Assembly: GCA_945860705.1 (NCBI GenBank)
Contig: CAMART010000023.1
Coordinates: 1 to 48,771 of the forward strand
Reading direction: 5' to 3'
Source of the DNA: Chitinophaga pinensis
Lineage (GTDB): Bacteria > Bacteroidota > Bacteroidia > Chitinophagales > CAMDFR01
DNA: 48,771 bases
In this document: piece by piece, positions 1 to 10,139 of the stretch
How positions within the stretch are numbered: the first letter of the stretch is position 1
Layout of the letters: every line of letters starts with the position of its first letter
Notes under the pieces: generated by a model
What the model saw: the letters and a program-made list of their open reading frames with translations, nothing else
Database searches by the model: none
Told to the model about the DNA's origin: nothing
Program-made: the position numbers and the translations under genes

Positions 1-376
1 TATGGAAGATTTTATATTCAATATTTAAAGAGTTGATGAGTTCGCTATTATTTGCGTCTATACATATATATTCACAATCTGCAAGTGAAATAATTTGCTT
101 CATACGCTCTATTGGATTGAGTAAAGATATAGGTACGTATATCAATTGAGCATATGAACATACAGTAAAAGAAGCAATACAATCGGAAGATTTTTCACAG
201 TAAAAAGCAATTCGAGTATGTTTATTTATGTTGTTTTCTTTAAAACAAGCTAATATAGAATCGACCTTTTTTGAATAAGTGTTGTAGGAGATAATATTAA
301 ATCTATCTTGATAAATAAAGTCAAGATTTGCAAATTTTTTGAGACTGTTTTCTAGTATTTCATGAAGATATTTCAA
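1..376 (-). CDS. AMP-forming adenylation/acyl-ligase, N-terminal part (DltA-like role), cut by window edge
   Basis: An open frame runs leftward off the window from a likely TTG start at 374-376, five bases after the carrier-protein stop. No ATG is available at this point, and a TAA lies just upstream in frame. The translated 125 residues look like the start of an ANL-superfamily (AMP-binding) enzyme. They begin LHEILENSLKKFANLDFIY, continue through a segment typical of adenylation domains (residues about 50-90, with YVPISLLNPIERMKQI), and have a DCEYICID-type strand. Such enzymes activate a carboxylate as an acyl-adenylate and load it on a carrier protein. The position directly after a carrier protein and an MBOAT transferase suggests a DltA-like role, activating D-alanine or another small acid. 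The substrate-specifying residues lie outside the window, so specificity is unknown. Confidence 0.72.
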   Translation of the reverse strand, partial: MKYLHEILENSLKKFANLDFIYQDRFNIISYNTYSKKVDSILACFKENNINKHTRIAFYCEKSSDCIASFTVCSYAQLIYVPISLLNPIERMKQIISLADCEYICIDANNSELINSLNIEYKIFH

Positions 377-381
377 AATAT

Positions 382-615
382 CTACATTTTAGATTTAATA
401 AAGTTTTCTATAAGTTCTATGCTGTCTAGATTATCTTTATCTACTTCATGAGGTTCAAATTCTACGTTAAATTCTTTTTCTAAATAATCAACAAGTTTTA
501 GGGTAGAAATAGAATCAATAATAGCACTTGATATGAGTGGTGTAGTATCATCAATCACTATCGTATCATCTTTTAATAGTTTTTCTACAATTATACTTTT
601 TATTTGTTCTCTCAT
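382..615 (-). CDS. Acyl/peptidyl carrier protein (DltC-like)
   Basis: A 77-residue acidic helical protein of the PP-binding (ACP/DltC) family. The phosphopantetheine attachment serine is visible as Ser35 in the motif IIDSIS (residues 32-37), followed by the usual helix TLKLVDYLEKEF. It would carry an activated acyl or aminoacyl group as a thioester in the cytoplasm, from the adjacent adenylating ligase to the membrane MBOAT acyltransferase. It sits 6 bases downstream of the MBOAT gene and 5 bases upstream of the ligase start, so the genes are very likely one transcript. The sequence cannot tell a D-alanyl carrier from a fatty or other acyl carrier; the operon context favours a Dlt-like role. 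Confidence 0.85.
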   Translation of the reverse strand: MREQIKSIIVEKLLKDDTIVIDDTTPLISSAIIDSISTLKLVDYLEKEFNVEFEPHEVDKDNLDSIELIENFIKSKM

Positions 616-621
616 TTCATG

Positions 622-3099
622 CTATTTTATGGTATCAAAATTAAAGTAATTTTGATGAATAACAATAGAATCATAGAGATGTTTGGCTATAATCTTATTT
701 GCTTTATTATTTGGATGAAAATCTACTTCTGATATATAAAGTTCTTTTTTATTTGTATTAACATATATTTTAGATAAATCTATAAGTTCTATTTGATGTT
801 TATTGCAAAGGTTGCTAATATATTTATATTCTATATCTATATTTTTATCTTTTATTGTAGGTAAAAACACTGCTACTACTTTCGTATTCTCACTTTTAGC
901 CAATGAATAAATGCTTTTAATAGAATAATCTATAAGCGAATCCATGTCGTTTCCCATTTTATTCATTATTTGTTCATCATTATCTAAACTATTTATTCTG
1001 TTTTTTTTCAATAAATTATTGAGATATGGGTCATCAATAGAACTAGCGTTTTTTAATAATCTAAATATATAATTTCCCATCCTATTTCGATAGTTGGTAT
1101 GCAGAAATAGCAGAATAGCATCTGGTTTGTATTGATTAGCTTTCCATTTATACTGATAGTAGCGTTGTAAGGGCATATATCCATTTACAGAAAAATTGAT
1201 TATTTCTGTATAAGTGTTTTGATTAAAAGAAATCTTATTTGAATTAATACGATTTTCAACTAAACTAATAAAATCTTCATTGTCATTGATACTATTGCCT
1301 GTTTCATGAGAACCACCTAAAACAACTATTCGATAGGTATTGCTTGGCTTTATAAGTGGATATTCTTTATCATGTAGACCAATACTATTTATAGAATATT
1401 GAATTCCATTAAAATCTATTTTTGTATTTGGAATATATTCCCCTATTAGAAGATTTTTTGTGTATCGCACTAGTTTTGTATTTGTAAATCTAGTCCATCG
1501 TTTTGAGTTTGTATTTTTATCTTCCCAGATTTGTGTAGTATAATTATTGGTACTTATTAGATTGCTATAATATCCATTATCAATATTTTTCATGTCTGGT
1601 CTATTAAGCCTTTCATACATCAAAGCATTTTCTAGCTTATTAACCAATTTTAAATTTGATTCATAAAAATAAATAAATGGTGCTATAAATAGGATAAAAA
1701 AGAATATAGATAGTGTGTTTTTGTGATTTACTAAAAGTTTGAAGCTAGTGTTCTTTTTGCTAAGATATAATTGATATGTAAATGATATGGTAAAATATAC
1801 GACTATAACTAAGGCTATTTTAGTTAATATATTAATATCAAAAAATCGTGCGGTATATATAAGGTTAAGCCAATTTTGAATAGATGGAGATATCCAAATA
1901 CTCCACAATATAGACATAGTAAGAAATACTCCTATAGACTTTATGGTATTGCTAATTAGAGGGAATTTACTTGGGTTTATTTTTTCATTGTTGTCTAGCT
2001 CTTTTTGTTGATTTATAGAGTTGTAACTTACAAGTAATCCAAAAATTCCCCAAAAAACAATATCTTTGATTAGGAATGGAAAGTTGCCATTTATCCAAAA
2101 CCATTGATAGCTATGCAATAGCCAAGTGATAAAGAAACAAGACATCGTAGCAAAAAATATAGAACTATATATACCCCATTTTTTAATTTTAAAATATATA
2201 GGATAGTAATATACCTTCAAAATAAAAGCTTTCCAATAAATATTTGTTCTTCGCCATAAATCACTAAAACTAGTAGCAAAAAATAAGTTGTTAAATATAT
2301 CAGGAACATTATATCCTGTAAGCATAATCATACCGAGTGCAATATGAAAAGCTCCAATAACTCTCCATACTAACAGGAAATTATAAATAAAATAAGTAAA
2401 TATATCGTATAAATTATCTATGTCACTTATAGACCGAATTAAAAAATGATAAATAAATCGATAAAGTAATAATTGAAATATACCTCTAATAATAAATAAT
2501 ATAGCACGTTGTACAATTTTTTGATCTATTTTTTGGTAAGAGCTACTAAATGATTTTAAATCAACTATAGGAAACAATGGTAAACTCAGATTAGGAAGCA
2601 ATAGAAAATAATTGATTCTATGTATTAGATCAATTGGTTTTTTCTGGTTTTTGATTTCATATAAATAAATGATAGATCTAAACATAAATAAACTTCCAAC
2701 TACATAAGCAATAATATCGAATTTTTCAAGAAAAGGAGATGATATCAAGTATATGCATGCTAAACACAAAATACTAGTGTAGAAAATTATTTTTTTGTAA
2801 GTAATATTATATTCGGCTAATAATATAAAAAGAAAATAGACAATAGTGAGAATAATAAATATAACTAAAAGACTCTGATAGATAGCTACTAAGCCTATAA
2901 CAAAAAATAAGGGCAATAAATATTTACTATTTGATGAGAAAAAAAAACTATACAAACTAAATAAGAGTACGATGATATATACAGGTAGGAGATTAAAGTT
3001 TTTTTCTAACTGAAATAAATAGATGATTATGCCTAAAAATATTAAAAAGGCATAATGAATATATATATTATTAAAAATTCGACTAATTTTATCTATCAT
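622..3099 (-). CDS. MBOAT acyltransferase fused to SGNH hydrolase-like domain (DltB-DltD-like fusion)
   Basis: An 825-residue membrane protein. Residues 1-490 carry many hydrophobic segments with MBOAT hallmarks: LWRR at 281-284, followed by TNIYWKAF, and the conserved His329 in WLLHSYQWFW. After a last membrane segment (about 463-478), residues about 500-825 form a soluble, presumably extracytoplasmic SGNH domain. This has Ser597 in GGSHETGN and the block V pair Asp793/His795 in DFHPN. In Dlt systems the MBOAT DltB and the SGNH-like DltD are separate proteins that pass D-alanine from DltC to a cell-surface polymer; here both functions are on one chain. The start ATG overlaps the stop of the upstream sulfotransferase by 4 bases. 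The alternative is an O-acyltransferase of other specificity, but the carrier protein and ligase next door favour Dlt-like chemistry. Confidence 0.82.
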   Translation of the reverse strand: MIDKISRIFNNIYIHYAFLIFLGIIIYLFQLEKNFNLLPVYIIVLLFSLYSFFFSSNSKYLLPLFFVIGLVAIYQSLLVIFIILTIVYFLFILLAEYNITYKKIIFYTSILCLACIYLISSPFLEKFDIIAYVVGSLFMFRSIIYLYEIKNQKKPIDLIHRINYFLLLPNLSLPLFPIVDLKSFSSSYQKIDQKIVQRAILFIIRGIFQLLLYRFIYHFLIRSISDIDNLYDIFTYFIYNFLLVWRVIGAFHIALGMIMLTGYNVPDIFNNLFFATSFSDLWRRTNIYWKAFILKVYYYPIYFKIKKWGIYSSIFFATMSCFFITWLLHSYQWFWINGNFPFLIKDIVFWGIFGLLVSYNSINQQKELDNNEKINPSKFPLISNTIKSIGVFLTMSILWSIWISPSIQNWLNLIYTARFFDINILTKIALVIVVYFTISFTYQLYLSKKNTSFKLLVNHKNTLSIFFFILFIAPFIYFYESNLKLVNKLENALMYERLNRPDMKNIDNGYYSNLISTNNYTTQIWEDKNTNSKRWTRFTNTKLVRYTKNLLIGEYIPNTKIDFNGIQYSINSIGLHDKEYPLIKPSNTYRIVVLGGSHETGNSINDNEDFISLVENRINSNKISFNQNTYTEIINFSVNGYMPLQRYYQYKWKANQYKPDAILLFLHTNYRNRMGNYIFRLLKNASSIDDPYLNNLLKKNRINSLDNDEQIMNKMGNDMDSLIDYSIKSIYSLAKSENTKVVAVFLPTIKDKNIDIEYKYISNLCNKHQIELIDLSKIYVNTNKKELYISEVDFHPNNKANKIIAKHLYDSIVIHQNYFNFDTIK

Positions 3100-3887
3100 G
3101 TATCAAAATTATAACTATTAAATATAGGTAAAGAAATTATTTGTTCGTTTACAATTTCTTTTTCACTTTGATTCCAATCGTATAAAATTCTACTTTTATT
3201 ATTTTTAGTAAGTAATTTGCTTGCAATATTTTTTATAAATTCATCGTTAATATCTAATTCTAAAAAATCAAATAGGTTGTAAATAAACTGTGCTGTATTT
3301 GCTATTAAGTCCTCATGTTTCAGTGTGATAATATCATATTTATTACTATCAATGATCTCTTGATTTGTTTTTGCTTCTTGTAGTATAGCTTCTATACTTT
3401 GATTGATTCCTTCTTTTGTTATTTCTGTTTTTTGTAAGTTTTTATAAGATGCTTTAGTTGTGATTATATCAAAAGGATTTCGAGTAATATGGATGATTTT
3501 TAATGGTAATTGAACAAATTGCTCTAGTTCATCTAAAATAAGTTTATTATTCATTATTTGGTTTGTAGTACCACTTCCTTTTTTATCACCTATTATCATT
3601 AATTTATCTGATTTTCCTTGTGATAAATCTTCGAAAACATACGAATATCCATATGATTGCCTACCTGTTTTTGCCTGTTCTGATGACAACTCAACTAATT
3701 TATTGAATAATATATTATTGTTTTTAAATAATTTATAATTTTTCACCACATCATATTCGTGAGAAATACACGCATTTGGGTGTGCATCTATTATAGAACC
3801 TATAATACTATGACCACTTCTAGGGTATCCAATAAAGAGACAAAAGTACTTTAAGGTATCATTTAAATGTTTTTTTGTAAAATTCAC
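3096..3887 (-). CDS. Sulfotransferase family protein
   Basis: A 263-residue protein of the PAPS-dependent sulfotransferase fold. The 5'-phosphosulfate loop is visible at residues 20-29 (GYPRSGHSII). The 3'-phosphate-binding strand-helix is at 135-147 (TRNPFDIITTKAS). It would transfer sulfate from PAPS to a carbohydrate hydroxyl. No ATG is available near the N-terminus; the start is a GTG at 3885-3887, placed just ahead of the P-loop strand at the spacing usual for the family. A Bacteroidota -7-like element, CAAAAATA (TATTTTTG on the minus strand), lies at 3892-3899. The gene is first in the leftward operon and overlaps the MBOAT-SGNH gene by 4 bases, which ties sulfation and acylation together. 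The acceptor is unknown. Confidence 0.82.
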   Translation of the reverse strand: MNFTKKHLNDTLKYFCLFIGYPRSGHSIIGSIIDAHPNACISHEYDVVKNYKLFKNNNILFNKLVELSSEQAKTGRQSYGYSYVFEDLSQGKSDKLMIIGDKKGSGTTNQIMNNKLILDELEQFVQLPLKIIHITRNPFDIITTKASYKNLQKTEITKEGINQSIEAILQEAKTNQEIIDSNKYDIITLKHEDLIANTAQFIYNLFDFLELDINDEFIKNIASKLLTKNNKSRILYDWNQSEKEIVNEQIISLPIFNSYNFDT

Positions 3888-3943
3888 ACAACAAAAATAA
3901 CGAAATATTTACAAATTCATGCTTAGATTTGCTAAATAAGCTT

Positions 3944-4735
3944 ATGATATCATTATTTAGTGCATATAAAAAAAATAGATTTTTAATAGCAGAACTATTG
4001 AAGCAAAATTTATTTACCCAATACAAACAATCTAAATTCTCACTTTTTTGGATTGTATTCAATCCTTTTTTTCAAATCATTATCTGGTCTATTCTCCATC
4101 TATCAGGCTTTCTTAAGATAGGGAATGTTGAAGTGCCATATGTAATTTATCTAGTTTCTGGAATTACGCTTTGGTGGTATTCGTTTAGTTTATACGAATC
4201 TATTTCAAATATTTATATAAAATATACAAATGTGATTTTAGAAAACAGATTTGATATTTTAGTGCTTGTAGTCGAAGCAATCATAAGACAAACCATATTT
4301 TTCATGATACATCTAGCAGTTTTGTTTGTCTTATGTGTGATATATAAAATTACTTTTTATCCAATAGCTGTCTTATATCCATTTTTTATTGTACCACTTA
4401 TATTATTTAGTGTTGCTTTAGGATTAATATTTGCTACAATCAGAGTCTTGTCAGTAGATTTTGCTATGATATTCGATAAGATATTTGGCTTGTCATTATT
4501 TCTTACACCAATATTATTTAAGCCAACTTTTAATAATACAGTTTTGAAGTATATTATTAAATTTAATCCACTGAGTTATTTGATTACATTTCCAAGAAAT
4601 TTATTATTGTACGGCAAATCACCTTCGTTTTTTGTCGTTATATTTATAGTAGTATTAAGCATTACTAGTATTGTTGTTGCAATGATGTATTTTGAAAAAA
4701 TGAAATATAAAACCATAGAAAAATTATTACAATAA
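3944..4735 (+). CDS. ABC-2 type polysaccharide export permease (Wzm-like)
   Basis: An integral membrane protein of 263 residues with about six hydrophobic segments. Its N-terminal cytoplasmic part matches ABC-2 polysaccharide exporters: ELLKQNLFTQYKQSKFS followed by LFWIVFNPFFQ. A C-terminal NPLSYLITFPRNLLLYG element is also typical of Wzm/TagG/RfbA permeases. It would form the membrane channel for export of a lipid-linked polysaccharide. I prefer the ATG at 3944; a TTG at 3929 would add five residues. The stop TAA shares its last base with the ATG of the following ATPase gene, as expected for the two halves of one exporter. It is the first gene of the rightward operon. Confidence 0.88.
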   Translation: MISLFSAYKKNRFLIAELLKQNLFTQYKQSKFSLFWIVFNPFFQIIIWSILHLSGFLKIGNVEVPYVIYLVSGITLWWYSFSLYESISNIYIKYTNVILENRFDILVLVVEAIIRQTIFFMIHLAVLFVLCVIYKITFYPIAVLYPFFIVPLILFSVALGLIFATIRVLSVDFAMIFDKIFGLSLFLTPILFKPTFNNTVLKYIIKFNPLSYLITFPRNLLLYGKSPSFFVVIFIVVLSITSIVVAMMYFEKMKYKTIEKLLQ

Positions 4736-5475
4736 TGTCAGATATTGTATTAGAAATAACATCTTTAAGTAAGTCTTTCTCACTATTGGGAGAGGAAAAT
4801 ATATTTAGCTTATTATTTTCTATAAAATCTAGAAGTTCAAATAATATAGCTCCACTGAAAAATATTTCATTAAATATAAAAAGAAATGAAATCGTAGGTG
4901 TATTAGGAATAAATGGTAGTGGCAAAACTACACTCACTAGAATCATAACAGGAATATATAAACATGATGAAGGAACCATTATTAAAAATGGTAATATAGT
5001 AGCAATTTTTGCACTTAGATCTGGATTTAACCCATTGCTTACAGGTAGAGAGAATATTTATTTAAAAGGAGCTTTTTATGGGTTAAATAAAAAAGAAATT
5101 GATGAAAATTTAAATGAAATTATTCGTTTTTCTGAATTAGAAGAATTTATTGATAAGCCACTTGGAATATACTCATCTGGTATGCGAGCAAAACTAGGAT
5201 TCGCCATACTCACACAAGTAAGAGCAGATTTGTTTATCATAGATGAAGCACTTGCAGTAGGGGACAAAAATTTTCGAACAAAATGTATGAACTATTTAGT
5301 TGAAAATAAAAATAATAGCTCTGTGATTTTTATCACTCATTTTCAAGAACATCTACAAAATTTTGCAGATAGAATATTGATTCTAAATAATGGTATGATT
5401 GAATTTGAATCTAAAGATTATACTGAAGCAACAAGTTTTTACAATACAATAAAAAGTAAGCAGATAGATGAGTAA
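4735..5475 (+). CDS. ABC transporter ATPase for polysaccharide export (Wzt-like)
   Basis: A 246-residue nucleotide-binding subunit. It has a Walker A motif at 58-65 (GINGSGKT), a signature sequence at 146-152 (YSSGMRA), and Walker B with D-loop at 166-177 (LFIIDEALAVGD). The N-terminal insertion before Walker A is typical of TagH/Wzt-type polysaccharide exporters. It ends soon after the ATPase core, so the C-terminal carbohydrate-binding domain found in some Wzt proteins is absent. With the preceding permease it should power export of the glycan built by this locus. The next gene begins inside its last codons (8-base overlap), indicating translational coupling. Confidence 0.9.
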   Translation: MSDIVLEITSLSKSFSLLGEENIFSLLFSIKSRSSNNIAPLKNISLNIKRNEIVGVLGINGSGKTTLTRIITGIYKHDEGTIIKNGNIVAIFALRSGFNPLLTGRENIYLKGAFYGLNKKEIDENLNEIIRFSELEEFIDKPLGIYSSGMRAKLGFAILTQVRADLFIIDEALAVGDKNFRTKCMNYLVENKNNSSVIFITHFQEHLQNFADRILILNNGMIEFESKDYTEATSFYNTIKSKQIDE

Positions 5476-6139
5476 TATAAAATTAGTTTCTTTGCATATA
5501 CCAAAAACAGCTGGTACTTCGTTTTATAAAACTATTCAAGATGCATATGGTATTACTTCAGTTGCACGCCTAGATATAAAACCAAATATCAATAAAATTT
5601 TACTAAATACCATAGAATATAACGATACTTTTTTACCAGATGAAATTGAAGTTATTCATGGACATTTTAATGTTTTAGATTTATATGAAAAATATCCTGA
5701 AACTAAAGATTTACCTATGATTACTTGGCTTAGAGACCCAGTTACAAGAGTGATATCTAATTATTTCTATTTACAAGAAAGATTAACAACATTTTTATCA
5801 AATCATGAAAACAATAGAGCTATATTAGATAAAATGATGAAATCAATAGAAGAGTTTATTGCTACTGATATTAATCGTAATAAAATGAGTAGATTTTTAA
5901 TAGGAAAAAATCTTTCAGATTTTAAGTTTGTAGGTTTGATAGAATATTATGAAGAAGATTTACAATCTTTATCTAATTTATTAAATATACAATTTAATCA
6001 AAACCAAGTAAATGTTACTGCAAACGATAATAAATATGATGTTTCAAGTGATATCATCGAATTAATAAAACAATATAATCAAGAAGATATTGCCCTTTAT
6101 GAAGAAGCTATAAGTATAAGAAATAAAAGATTGTCATAA
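5468..6139 (+). CDS. Sulfotransferase (heparan-sulfate 2-O-sulfotransferase-like class)
   Basis: A 223-residue protein beginning with the PAPS-binding loop LHIPKTAGTSF at residues 9-19, characteristic of the Sulfotransfer_2 / Gal-3-O and 2-O-sulfotransferase group. The 3'-phosphate-binding element LRDPVTRVISNY is at 88-99. Other features, such as HGHF at about 64-67, also fit this class. It likely sulfates a sugar of the polysaccharide made here. It differs in class from the other three sulfotransferase domains of the locus, which have the PRSG motif, so at least two acceptor positions are plausible. It overlaps the exporter ATPase by 8 bases and lies 3 bases before the next sulfotransferase gene. 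Confidence 0.85.
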   Translation: MSNIKLVSLHIPKTAGTSFYKTIQDAYGITSVARLDIKPNINKILLNTIEYNDTFLPDEIEVIHGHFNVLDLYEKYPETKDLPMITWLRDPVTRVISNYFYLQERLTTFLSNHENNRAILDKMMKSIEEFIATDINRNKMSRFLIGKNLSDFKFVGLIEYYEEDLQSLSNLLNIQFNQNQVNVTANDNKYDVSSDIIELIKQYNQEDIALYEEAISIRNKRLS

Positions 6140-6142
6140 TAA

Positions 6143-6991
6143 ATGAAACTCTGGCTGGCATCATATCCTCGAAGTGGCAATACATTTTTTAGAAATATTT
6201 TACACGATTGCTATTCTATATCATCATCTACATTTGATACACAAATTGAATTTAGAAAATATGTAGACTATGAATCCTTTGATGTAGTAAAAACACATGA
6301 GCTTTTTGAATTATTACCACCACATTTAAAAGATATACCAAAAGTATATATACTCAGAGATGGGAGAGATGCTATAGTTTCGCAAGCTTACCAAATGATC
6401 AATTATAAAAAATCTACTTTAGCTCCATATTTATTAATGATTGATATGATTTTAAGTAAAGATAATTCACACTATGGAGGCTGGAGTTCCAATGTTGAAT
6501 CATGGTCTAGAGTGTCAGATGTAATTATCAAATTTGAAGATTTAATTTTAAAACCAATTGATGAAGTAAGTAGAATAAAAGATATATACAATTTACCTAA
6601 TCCAGAATTAGACAATATACCAAGTTTTCAATCGCAAAAAAATGATGGTGCAAAGTATGGTAATCCAGAGAATAAATTTCAGCATTTTTTCAGAAAAGGT
6701 ATCCCAGGTTCATGGAGAGACGATATGCCTATGATCATTCAAGATTTGTTTTGGAAGTATCACGGAAATACAATGTCGAAATATGGTTATACATTTGATA
6801 ATAATTATAAAAATGTCTTAGATGACAAAATAAGTATAAAGAAAAATATAATTAAATATTTGGTTTATGGTAAACCTGTAGATAAACATCTTTATAAAAT
6901 ATTATTGAATATTACTATAAATAAACCTATATATTTTTTACTTTCGTTATACTATATTATTAGAGAGCTTTTATATTCTATTATAAAATAA
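6143..6991 (+). CDS. Sulfotransferase (Sulfotransfer_1-like)
   Basis: A 282-residue protein with the PAPS 5'-phosphosulfate loop at 5-16 (LASYPRSGNTFF), the 3'-phosphate-binding element at 70-80 (ILRDGRDAIVS), and the C-terminal FRKGIPGSW loop that closes over PAPS. Its first ~230 residues align by eye along their whole length with the N-terminal half of the next gene, so the two look like tandem duplicates. Residues after about 230 have a short hydrophobic tail (KPIYFLLSLYYIIRELL) that may be a membrane-associated helix. It lies 2 bases before the next gene in the glycan operon. The acceptor sugar is unknown. Confidence 0.88.
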   Translation: MKLWLASYPRSGNTFFRNILHDCYSISSSTFDTQIEFRKYVDYESFDVVKTHELFELLPPHLKDIPKVYILRDGRDAIVSQAYQMINYKKSTLAPYLLMIDMILSKDNSHYGGWSSNVESWSRVSDVIIKFEDLILKPIDEVSRIKDIYNLPNPELDNIPSFQSQKNDGAKYGNPENKFQHFFRKGIPGSWRDDMPMIIQDLFWKYHGNTMSKYGYTFDNNYKNVLDDKISIKKNIIKYLVYGKPVDKHLYKILLNITINKPIYFLLSLYYIIRELLYSIIK

Positions 6992-6993
6992 CT

Positions 6994-9054
6994 ATGAAAA
7001 TCTGGTTAGCATCTTATCCTCGTAGTGGCAATACATTCCTCAGAAATGTGTTGTTTCAATGCTATGGATTGGAGTCTAGTACTTATCATCATGAAACCAC
7101 TTATTCTTTAGAAGAAAATTTTCATCTATCAGATATAGTCAAAACACATCTACTTCCACATGAGCTCCCAATTGAATACAAAGATCTACCAAAAGTATAT
7201 TTGATAAGAGATGGCAGAGACGCAGTAGTTTCAATGGCACATCACAAAAAAGATTTGATAGATATTGGTACAGATTTTAATGATAATCTAAAAGAAATAA
7301 TTATAGCAGCCGAAGGTTCGCATTTTAGTGGTTGGTCGGAGCATGTAGCTCAATGGATGGAAGCAGCAGATATAATTATCAGCTATGAAGATTTAATAAA
7401 AGATCCAATAAAAGAAGTAGAAAAAATCAGAAAAATTTATGATTTACCTCAGCCAGATGCAAGTAAACTATTAAGTTTCAATGAACTCAAATCTGGTAAT
7501 GCGAATTATGGAAGTGGCAAATTTCATAACCTTACTGGTGATGATGAAAAAACTTTTTCAGCAAAAAATTTTAGAAAAGGGAAAGCAGGTGCTTGGGTAG
7601 AGGAGATGAATGAATTTCAAAGAGATTTATTTTGGAATTATCACGGACACATCATGAAGAAAATGGGTTATATGTATGATGGTACTTACAATGAAATCGA
7701 TTCATTTTCATTAGGTAAAATCAAATCTAAGCTAGGTGAGAATATAACAATCAACAACAAAACTTATAAGGTTTTAATCGATGCCTCAAAAATTCTTGGT
7801 ACAACTACAGATGGTGTAAAAAGGTATGTAGTTGAGCTTTTGAGAGAGCTAAAAGATGTACAAAAATTTGGCAATCATTCATTTCATTTTCATATTTATC
7901 TAAATGGAAAAATTTTTGACATAGAAGAAGTCGATTTTTTTATTGATAAACCTATTGATAATGCCCAAGAGTATTTTTTATATGAGCGCATTCTATTATT
8001 TATAAGGAAGAGTATAAAATTTTTATTGCCAAAATTCATTTATGATAAACTCAGTCCTTATTACAGAAATACTAATTTTAGAGAAAAATTACTTTTGATA
8101 CGTGAAAAGATTTCACAAGATATTTTTTATAAAAAAATTCTAAATAGAGATAAAAATTCCAATCATTTTATTTCATATGATTTAGTTCATGTTACATTAC
8201 CACAGCATCTTTCACAGTTCTTATTGAATGATATAAAGACTCTAGTTACGGTGCATGATGTGAGTCATCAATCTCATCCAGAATTTCATGTAGACAATAA
8301 TAATTTGTTAGCTGAAAAAGGGTTTGAAATTATTGTAGATAAAAAACTACCCATTATTTCAGTAAGTAATTCCACTAGTGCAGAGTTAACTAAATTTTAT
8401 AAGATAGGTAGTGAAAAAATAAATACAATTTACGAAGCTACCAATACAAAACTATTTAAATATAATACCAACAATCACTTATTAGAAGATATAAAAAATA
8501 GATATAACATTCCAAAAGATAAAAAGTATTTCCTTTGTCTTTCTACAATTGAGCCAAGAAAAAATATATTAAATACCATTAAAGCATTTAAAAAATTCGT
8601 ATCCGATACAAAATCTGAAACTATTTTAGTAATTGCAGGTAAAAAAGGATGGAAATATGAGGAGCTTTTTGCAGATAATGCGATACAAGACAATATAGTA
8701 TTTACAGGATTTGTAAGAGATAGAGACCTCAGTGCATTATATACCGGTGCTCTTGCTTTTTGTTATGTTTCGCATTACGAGGGATTTGGTTTGCCTATAC
8801 TTGAAGCTATGAGTTGCAGAGTGCCAGTTATATGTGGCAATAATACATCACAAATAGAGATACTTGGCGCTGGTGGTATTGCTGTTGATAGCAATGATGT
8901 TGAGGCTATTTGTAACGCAATGCAAACTATGTCTGATGAACAAAAAAGAGAAGCATATGCAATACTTGCTTGGCAACAATCATTCACATTCAATTGGTAT
9001 AAAACAGCATTGGATACATTATCTATTTATAAAAAAGTAATAGAAAGTAATTGA
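6994..9054 (+). CDS. Bifunctional sulfotransferase - GT4 glycosyltransferase fusion
   Basis: A 686-residue two-domain protein. Residues 1 to about 240 are a sulfotransferase closely like the preceding gene product: LASYPRSGNTFLRN at 5-18, IRDGRDAVVS at 71-80, and an FRKGKAGAW loop. From about residue 258 a GT-B fold glycosyltransferase begins (VLIDASKILGTTTDGVKRY). It carries STIEPRKN at 517-524 and the donor-binding YEGFGLPILEAM from residue 595, both typical of family GT4. The fusion suggests that a sugar is added and sulfated in one complex. The frame is continuous and no stop interrupts the junction. Its stop codon overlaps the start of the next glycosyltransferase by one base (TGATG). 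Confidence 0.88.
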   Translation: MKIWLASYPRSGNTFLRNVLFQCYGLESSTYHHETTYSLEENFHLSDIVKTHLLPHELPIEYKDLPKVYLIRDGRDAVVSMAHHKKDLIDIGTDFNDNLKEIIIAAEGSHFSGWSEHVAQWMEAADIIISYEDLIKDPIKEVEKIRKIYDLPQPDASKLLSFNELKSGNANYGSGKFHNLTGDDEKTFSAKNFRKGKAGAWVEEMNEFQRDLFWNYHGHIMKKMGYMYDGTYNEIDSFSLGKIKSKLGENITINNKTYKVLIDASKILGTTTDGVKRYVVELLRELKDVQKFGNHSFHFHIYLNGKIFDIEEVDFFIDKPIDNAQEYFLYERILLFIRKSIKFLLPKFIYDKLSPYYRNTNFREKLLLIREKISQDIFYKKILNRDKNSNHFISYDLVHVTLPQHLSQFLLNDIKTLVTVHDVSHQSHPEFHVDNNNLLAEKGFEIIVDKKLPIISVSNSTSAELTKFYKIGSEKINTIYEATNTKLFKYNTNNHLLEDIKNRYNIPKDKKYFLCLSTIEPRKNILNTIKAFKKFVSDTKSETILVIAGKKGWKYEELFADNAIQDNIVFTGFVRDRDLSALYTGALAFCYVSHYEGFGLPILEAMSCRVPVICGNNTSQIEILGAGGIAVDSNDVEAICNAMQTMSDEQKREAYAILAWQQSFTFNWYKTALDTLSIYKKVIESN

Positions 9055-10139
9055 TGAAAAAGATAGCCATCATAGCAGACCCAATGGACAATCAGCAAGC
9101 TGGTGTGCATATCTATACAAAAAATATGGTCTATTCATTACTTCAAAATGATACCGAGAACTATTACATTATTTATAAAGAAAAAAAAGATTCATACTTA
9201 GATTCGTATTCAAATTGCAAACAAGTAATTATTACCAATTTTATTGGTTTTACAGCTATTAGAAAGTTTGTTTTACTACCAATACTAAGTGTTTATTATG
9301 GTGCAAATATTGTAATTGAACCAGCCCATTTTGGACCATTTTTATTACCTAAAAAAATCAAACGTATCACAGTAATTCATGATTTAAGTGCAGTATTATT
9401 TCCTCAATGGCATAGCTATTATAGTAGTATTCTTCAAAAAATATTTTTAAATAGAATTTTGAAAAAAGCATCATTAATTATTTCTAATTCCTTTTTTACA
9501 GAAAAAGAAATTATTAAGTATTATCCATTTACGAAAGATAAAATTCAAACTATTTATCCAGGTGTGATAAGTGATACCATACAAGATGAAAAAGAAATTG
9601 ATACTAAGAAAATTCCGTATTTTTTGTTTGTTGGTACAATAGAGCCTCGCAAGAATCTCAACTTACTTTTAAATGCTTTTAAAAAATACAAAGACGAAGT
9701 AAAAGATGATAAACAATTAATAATAGTTGGTGCAAAAGGATGGAAAACGGATAGTTTTTTTGAAATATATAATCAGCATCCATATAAGAATGAGATCATT
9801 CTAACAGGTTTTGTTACAGATGAGGAACTAAAAAAATACTATAAAAACTGTTATGCATTTATTTATCCTTCTCAATATGAAGGTTTTGGTTTCCCAGTGA
9901 TAGAAGCCATGCGACAAGGTACAGTATGCGTCACTACCGCAGATTCTAGTATGAGCGAAATAGCTTATCCATTTGTGATTACTTTTCAAAACAATAATTT
10001 AAAAAGCTTGTTTAATGCTATGTGTCAAATTGAAAATTTTAAAAATGTAACAAGAAGTGATGAAATTATAATCCATTCACAAAAATATGATTGGGATATA
10101 TTTGCAAAAGCTTTTATTAAAAAAATGAATAACTTATGA
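9054..10139 (+). CDS. Glycosyltransferase family 4 protein
   Basis: A GT-B fold glycosyltransferase of 361 residues. The N-terminal acceptor domain has a glycine-containing loop (ADPMDNQQAGVHIY). The C-terminal nucleotide-sugar domain has VGTIEPRKNLNLLLNAF and YEGFGFPVIEAM. It resembles the GT4 half of the upstream fusion protein. It probably adds one sugar to the lipid-linked repeat that the ABC exporter moves. I chose the ATG at 9054, which overlaps the upstream TGA, over the TTG one codon earlier. The stop overlaps the antiporter start by 4 bases (ATGA). Confidence 0.88.
   Translation: MKKIAIIADPMDNQQAGVHIYTKNMVYSLLQNDTENYYIIYKEKKDSYLDSYSNCKQVIITNFIGFTAIRKFVLLPILSVYYGANIVIEPAHFGPFLLPKKIKRITVIHDLSAVLFPQWHSYYSSILQKIFLNRILKKASLIISNSFFTEKEIIKYYPFTKDKIQTIYPGVISDTIQDEKEIDTKKIPYFLFVGTIEPRKNLNLLLNAFKKYKDEVKDDKQLIIVGAKGWKTDSFFEIYNQHPYKNEIILTGFVTDEELKKYYKNCYAFIYPSQYEGFGFPVIEAMRQGTVCVTTADSSMSEIAYPFVITFQNNNLKSLFNAMCQIENFKNVTRSDEIIIHSQKYDWDIFAKAFIKKMNNL

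Follow-up and report, generated by a model that had tools for sequence, protein, structure and literature searches.

A predicted proline-to-pyrrole carrier pathway joined to a single-chain MBOAT-SGNH acyltransferase in Bacteroidota and other phyla

The operon and its continuation

The window, that is, the whole stretch of DNA analysed here, is contig C23 (48,771 bp) of a Bacteroidota genome of 2.94 Mb in 46 contigs, the closest relatives of which are three metagenome-assembled genomes (MAGs) of the same genus (L042, L043 and L044). At its left end lies a leftward operon that runs from a sulfotransferase-like gene through a gene for an 825-residue protein with an MBOAT and an SGNH domain (the fusion) and a carrier protein gene to the start of an AMP-forming ligase gene (Table 1). 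The genes are 5-6 bp apart, apart from a 4-bp overlap of the sulfotransferase gene with the start of the fusion gene, and the ligase gene is truncated because base 1 of the window is the contig end. A preliminary description of this DNA had read the operon as a Dlt-like machine, and the ligase start, the carrier with its Ser35, the two-domain protein and the tight leftward packing that it named are all present where it placed them. The analysis below indicates that the operon belongs to a system that appears to couple the carrier-bound conversion of proline to pyrrole with a single-chain MBOAT-SGNH transferase, a combination that seems to be undescribed.

A search of the contigs of the genome for AMP-binding domains shows that contig C27 opens with the C-terminal part of a ligase of the amino-acid-adenylating kind; an acyl-CoA-dehydrogenase-like gene and a flavin-halogenase-like gene come next. 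Contigs C23 and C27 share no overlap, and judged from the relatives about 25 codons lie between them. We infer that the two contigs join at this point, a connection well supported by synteny because the order MBOAT-SGNH, carrier, ligase, dehydrogenase, halogenase-like enzyme is unbroken in the three same-genus genomes (in L043 up to the contig end) and recurs in L045, with ABC genes between fusion and carrier, and in L047 and L055. Two of the same-genus loci (L042 7842-9155 and L044 2936-4288) hold an extra adenylate-forming enzyme after the halogenase-like gene, with a PF00501 score of 44 bits and a C-terminal domain of the phenylacetate-CoA-ligase type.

The predicted acyl group

In alignments to DltA and to PltF, the pyoluteorin ligase that loads L-proline on its carrier (6o6e/7thq), the ligase pocket reads DLFYLALVC, compared with DLLYLALVC in PltF and DLMTLCNVA in DltA. 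Eight of its nine positions agree with PltF and four with DltA, and the Cys of the DltA pocket is replaced by Ala. Pocket positions 4, 6 and 8 are Y, A and V in 40 of 40 ligases adjoining fusion genes, a set that includes some loci fetched twice, and the exact PltF code is found in nine loci of other phyla; the proline pocket code string had no match in a literature search. By this comparison the pocket is of the proline and not the D-alanine type, and D-alanine specificity is rejected on this basis. A fatty-acyl ligase was likewise rejected, as amino-acid adenylation enzymes give the best matches. The preliminary description had taken a fatty-acid ligase or an unrelated NRPS module as evidence against its reading, and this applies in part and informatively: the enzyme is an amino-acid-activating ligase, but of the proline type known from antibiotic pathways.

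The carrier has its attachment Ser35 and the preceding Asp invariant in 41 of 41 carriers. Its best NCBIfam match is the ornithine-lipid carrier NF052616, at 63 of 130 bits, a reading that was set aside because it does not agree with the neighbouring genes.

The dehydrogenase scores highest on models of prolyl-carrier dehydrogenases, PigA (338 bits) and RedW (288 bits), while the runner-up among the acyl-CoA dehydrogenases of that genome has a PigA score of 257 bits. For the same-genus enzyme the best match in the PDB is the L-prolyl-PCP (peptidyl carrier protein) dehydrogenase 5zw0, and the Glu that is replaced by Ala in the 6af6 variant is retained. This catalytic Glu is found in every family member that spans the site. 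In a tree, the prolyl-ACP (acyl carrier protein) dehydrogenase 4irn, a solved structure, nests among the dehydrogenases of the system, and ordinary acyl-CoA dehydrogenases are set apart on a long branch of their own. By comparison, predicted loading of proline and its oxidation to pyrrole-2-carboxyl are well founded because of the ligase pocket together with the dehydrogenase scores, PDB match, catalytic Glu and tree.

The flavin enzyme matches CndH, CmlS, Mpy16 and PltA, carries GGGPAGS at the GxGxxG position, and conserves the lysine aligned with Lys71, the tunnel lysine of CmlS. The halogenase-like gene is absent from several fusion loci. Flavin halogenases that act on a carrier-tethered pyrrole are known (PMC8407142), and the tethered pyrrole may be halogenated here as well, a step that is less sure than proline loading and oxidation. 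Two distinct halogenase-like genes stand together at one locus in L068 and L095, which may mean sequential tailoring of the pyrrole.

The MBOAT-SGNH transferase

In the 825-aa protein the LWRR motif (281-284), His329, Ser597, Asp793 and His795 occupy the positions named in the preliminary description. Across 88 aligned fusion proteins His329 and Ser597 are conserved in 100%, His795 in 99% and Asp793 in 94%, and this pattern of conserved catalytic residues is not due to chance. An AlphaFold model of the fusion (predicted local distance difference test, pLDDT, 80; predicted template-modelling score, pTM, 0.68) matches DltB 8jem over residues 30-413 of the MBOAT half with Z 19.9 and 364 aligned residues, with further matches to PORCN and HHAT. 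The C-terminal part, approximately residues 531-822, matches SGNH hydrolases with Z 15-20, and its putative Ser/Asp/His triad is assigned by conservation. The DltB-like MBOAT and SGNH functions lie in one polypeptide beside sulfotransferase genes, as had been proposed. Profile and sequence searches register little of this: the Pfam MBOAT model PF03062 does not match the fusion, the MBOAT half has no Pfam or NCBIfam assignment, the Lipase_GDSL score is slightly below the Pfam cut-off, and a PDB sequence search with the protein gave no match.

In bacterial MBOAT systems the acyl group passes to the Tyr of an FxYxxF hexapeptide, which is either C-terminal in the MBOAT or part of DltX, and from there to the SGNH serine (PMC12148441). 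This motif is found in one of the 88 fusions (residues 400-590 tested), compared with a C-terminal copy in 21 of 22 ordinary MBOATs of the same order; the fusion is also without the C-terminal hexapeptide typical of acetyl-CoA-using MBOATs. No DltX-type motif was found in the fusion; the search did not extend to a free-standing DltX microprotein encoded at another site of the genome. A Gly-Tyr-Tyr (GYY) motif, G509-Y510-Y511, is conserved in 98, 99 and 100% of the 88 fusions, respectively, and lies in the linker that connects the final membrane helix with the SGNH domain, a stretch of low model confidence (pLDDT below 50) that is presumably flexible. We propose a GYY tyrosine as the candidate shuttle replacing FxYxxF. 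The same genome also encodes, on contig C1 (L011 8765-11274), an ordinary MBOAT that ends in FIYFQF and is overlapped by a 381-aa gene read as an SGNH-like partner, likely an O-acetylation pair.

Distribution, linkage and glycan context

A scan of the collection recovered 77 fusion loci from Bacteroidota, Rhodothermota, Calditrichota, Gemmatimonadota, Acidobacteriota, Myxococcota, Planctomycetota, Verrucomicrobiota, Alphaproteobacteria (Microvirga isolates) and several single MAGs. The full cassette is contiguous in the same-genus genomes, in other genomes and in other phyla, and the genes stay linked from phylum to phylum although their order is shuffled. The Microvirga loci have the fusion next to, but divergent from, the genes for carrier, ligase and dehydrogenase, also on the complete plasmid pMVF16-2. 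Among the 37 fusion loci flanked on each side by 4 kb or more, where a ligase was sought within approximately 10 kb, 21 have a ligase and 17 a dehydrogenase, compared with none of 20 ordinary MBOAT loci of the same order having any of these genes (Fisher p 7e-6, ignoring relatedness and the unequal sampling of the two sets). In the genomes that were checked, fusion clusters first seen without a dehydrogenase have the gene just beyond the stretch read or elsewhere in the genome, and the idea that proline itself is transferred at loci without a linked dehydrogenase is weakened by these unlinked copies.

Some loci depart from the common layout. Two to four tandem MBOAT-SGNH paralogues, which may use one acyl supply for different positions on the sugars, occur at L046 (1-17275) and also at L070-L074, L078, L080, L096 and L097. 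In family f9 (L051, L052 and L053) the fusion, carrier and ligase adjoin GT2-like genes, the pocket reads DLHYLALVC or DIFYLAFVC, and the dehydrogenase is unlinked.

The genes adjoining fusions encode glycosyltransferases, sulfotransferases, ABC exporters, a sugar-phosphate transferase, a Wza-type exporter or a heparinase-like enzyme. From this gene context the most economical acceptor would be an exported, often sulfated polysaccharide, and decoration of an exported glycan, as put forward in the preliminary description, is probable. Literature searches, with subscription journals mostly outside their reach, found no description of pyrrole-2-carboxylate on, or pyrrole acylation of, a surface polysaccharide, nor of an MBOAT together with a carrier, adenylation enzyme or pyrrole, nor of a single-chain MBOAT-SGNH protein.

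Proposed mechanism and alternatives

The system is probably a carrier-dependent one that esterifies an exported polysaccharide with pyrrole-2-carboxyl groups. Sequence and structure comparison provide the basis of this reading (the protein families, proline-type pocket, catalytic residues, linkage, DltB and SGNH folds and GYY), from which the actual chemistry, the order of hand-off, the role of GYY, the halogenation and the acceptor are extrapolated. The ligase would adenylate L-proline and load it onto the phosphopantetheine arm of the carrier, and the enzyme with the acyl-CoA-dehydrogenase fold would then turn prolyl-S-carrier into pyrrolyl-2-carboxyl-S-carrier; halogenation, or else hydroxylation, of the tethered pyrrole by the flavin enzyme may follow. 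The carrier would dock at the cytoplasmic side of the MBOAT, where His329 would drive transmembrane transfer of the acyl group, probably to a GYY tyrosine in the periplasmic linker. From this tyrosine the group would move to Ser597 of the SGNH domain and on to a hydroxyl of the glycan, itself presumably made and exported by the products of the neighbouring genes for glycosyltransferases, sulfotransferases and the ABC exporter. The broader proposition, that this is an unnamed multi-phylum envelope-modification system in which the MBOAT-SGNH protein moves carrier-borne pyrrole-2-carboxyl, halogenated in some lineages, to exported and often sulfated polysaccharide via the internal GYY rather than a C-terminal FxYxxF, seems to us evenly balanced between true and false.

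Several observations weigh against esterification of a polysaccharide with pyrrole-2-carboxyl. The proposed acceptor has gene context as its basis, and the C23-C27 join, absent from the assembly with its approximately 25 codons, rests on synteny. The dehydrogenase scores do not reach the equivalog cut-offs of NCBIfam (338 of 500 bits for PigA and 288 of 650 for RedW), which delimit the prodiginine enzymes themselves. In the source genus WIFVIP stands in place of the halogenase motif WxWxIP, which many relatives have in full. Some fusion loci have no ligase within 10 kb, and several genomes carry tandem fusion paralogues, so that some copies may transfer different acyl groups or draw on a common supply.

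The nature of the acyl group is one point at which an alternative may be considered, as the transferred group could be a prolyl, dihydropyrrole or N-hydroxy/hydroxy-pyrrole acyl instead of (halo)pyrrole-2-carboxyl. Loci without a linked dehydrogenase would fit such a group, as would the WIFVIP variant if it indicates a monooxygenase instead of a halogenase, but most ligase loci have a linked dehydrogenase and the checked genomes otherwise hold an unlinked copy with the same active-site motif, and this alternative is unlikely. Slightly less likely again is a pyrrole-2-carboxyl group destined for a lipid, pigment or protein. The two f9 loci L051 and L053, which, as read from their open reading frames, have ketosynthase/ketoreductase-like neighbours of the fatty-acid type, point in that direction; against it, glycosyltransferase, sulfotransferase, ABC-exporter, sugar-phosphate transferase or Wza-like genes recur by the fusion, and the characterised bacterial MBOAT/SGNH systems modify envelope polymers (PMC12148441). 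It is a shade more doubtful still that the proline, carrier, dehydrogenase and halogenase genes make a soluble pyrrole metabolite, with the MBOAT-SGNH protein a separate enzyme such as an acetyltransferase. Enzymes of this kind are known from antibiotic pathways (PltF/PltE/PltA, RedW, PigA) and fusion copies without a linked ligase exist, but linkage recurs across phyla despite the shuffled gene order, no condensation, thioesterase or polyketide gene is labelled in the cassettes, and the fusion has no hexapeptide of the acetyl-CoA-using kind. True Dlt-like D-alanylation with a ligase loading D-alanine, the original proposal, draws on the DltB-like fold and on DltA being the top NCBIfam match of the C-terminal part of the ligase, but it is most improbable given that this match misses its cut-off (265 of 476 bits, the fragment being incomplete) and that the pocket comparison, the prolyl dehydrogenase-like and flavin-halogenase-like genes of the operon, the absence of a DltD family protein from the genome and of a DltX-type motif from the fusion all speak against D-alanine.

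Relation to known systems

The predicted pyrrole-esterifying system works like Dlt, yet is not a Dlt system, because its pocket is not of the D-alanine type and neither a DltD family protein nor FxYxxF was found. With Dlt (DltA-DltB-DltC-DltD-DltX) it shares an AMP-forming amino-acid ligase, a small carrier, a DltB-fold MBOAT with a catalytic His, an SGNH protein and delivery as a carrier thioester, and to this extent the preliminary description holds. It differs in the proline pocket, the two added oxidative enzymes, the single chain of MBOAT and SGNH, the linker GYY in place of the FxYxxF of DltX, the Gram-negative polysaccharide context, and an SGNH domain outside the DltD family. The model of that family, PF04914, has no match in the genome and finds B. 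subtilis and L. lactis.

The prolyl-to-pyrrolyl pathways (PltF/PltL/PltE/PltA, RedW, PigA, AnaB and CloN genes) have the same ligase pocket, carrier, dehydrogenase with catalytic Glu and flavin-halogenase-like enzyme. Their known products are antibiotics, pigments or toxins, whereas the present cassette ends in a membrane acyltransferase by polysaccharide genes. In clorobiocin the pyrrole is placed on the sugar of a small molecule.

The O-acetylation systems PatA/PatB, AlgI/AlgJ/AlgX and WssH/WssI also acylate envelope polymers with an MBOAT and an SGNH protein, but use acyl-CoA, separate proteins and a C-terminal FxYxxF (PMC12148441), in contrast to the carrier, fused SGNH domain and missing FxYxxF found here; MBOAT-SGNH pathways other than Dlt are said to be without a carrier (PMC12148441). 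The AT3-SGNH fusions OatA and OafB likewise combine a membrane acyltransferase with a C-terminal SGNH domain in one polypeptide, with an acyl-Tyr relay in OatA, but their membrane part is AT3 and not MBOAT and their donor is acetyl-CoA.

If the pyrrole-ester reading is true, bacterial surface polysaccharides carry aromatic pyrrole and possibly halopyrrole acyl groups of the kind known from antibiotics and pigments, added by a route that runs parallel to Dlt, a widespread family missed by Pfam and NCBIfam gains a name and a substrate, and carrier-dependent MBOAT-SGNH acylation extends beyond D-alanine. The system would also put the acyl-tyrosine shuttle model to a stringent test, since the usual motif is missing and another invariant tyrosine pair lies where a shuttle is needed. 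More speculatively, pyrrole and especially halopyrrole groups could make the surface more hydrophobic or antimicrobial, or alter recognition by phages or predators.

Flanking genes

Divergently from the operon, the window continues with genes for a probable polysaccharide exporter, sulfotransferases and glycosyltransferases (Table 1).

Table 1. Features of the operon, its continuation on contig C27 and the adjoining genes; positions are in the window unless C27 is given.
Feature	Position	Strand	Evidence
Sulfotransferase-like protein, first operon gene	3096-3887	-	PF00685 35.6 bits, PF13469 32.2 bits; L043 orthologue in equivalent place
MBOAT-SGNH fusion acyltransferase, 825 aa	622-3099	-	Alignment of 88, AlphaFold model, structure matches
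DltB-like MBOAT domain, ~residues 1-421 (His329, WRR 282-284)	1837-3099	-	Z 19.9 to DltB 8jem; His329 in 100% of 88
G509-Y510-Y511 codons, flexible linker, candidate acyl-Tyr shuttle	1567-1575	-	98/99/100% of 88; stretch with pLDDT <50; FxYxxF absent
SGNH transferase domain, ~residues 585-825 (Ser597, Asp793, His795)	625-1347	-	Z 15-20 to SGNH hydrolases; residue conservation
Carrier protein, 77 aa (Ser35)	382-615	-	PF00550 30.1 bits; Ser invariant in 41 carriers
Ligase N-terminal part, 125 aa, TTG start, predicted proline-type, AMP-forming	2-376	-	PF00501 profile positions 5-101, E 1.2e-9
Ligase C-terminal part, 355 aa	C27:1-1068 (L008)		PF00501 profile positions 162-384
Acyl-CoA-dehydrogenase-like (prolyl-PCP dehydrogenase-like) gene	C27:1065-2189		4-bp overlap with ligase
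Flavin-halogenase-like gene	C27:2204-3589		After dehydrogenase
ABC-2 type permease (Wzm-like), divergent, probable polysaccharide exporter	3929-4735	+	PF01061 21.9 bits, slightly below cut-off; conserved by fusion in L043-L045, L049
ABC ATPase (Wzt-like)	4735-5475	+	PF00005 72 bits
Three further sulfotransferase-domain genes, last (6994-9054) fused to GT4 glycosyltransferase	5468-9054	+	PF03567, PF00685, PF00534; conserved
GT4 glycosyltransferase	9051-10139	+	PF00534 102.6 bits

The last of the three sulfotransferase-domain genes encodes a 686-aa protein with an N-terminal sulfotransferase domain and a C-terminal GT4 domain, a fusion that is kept near the equivalent cluster in several Saprospiria-like genomes.

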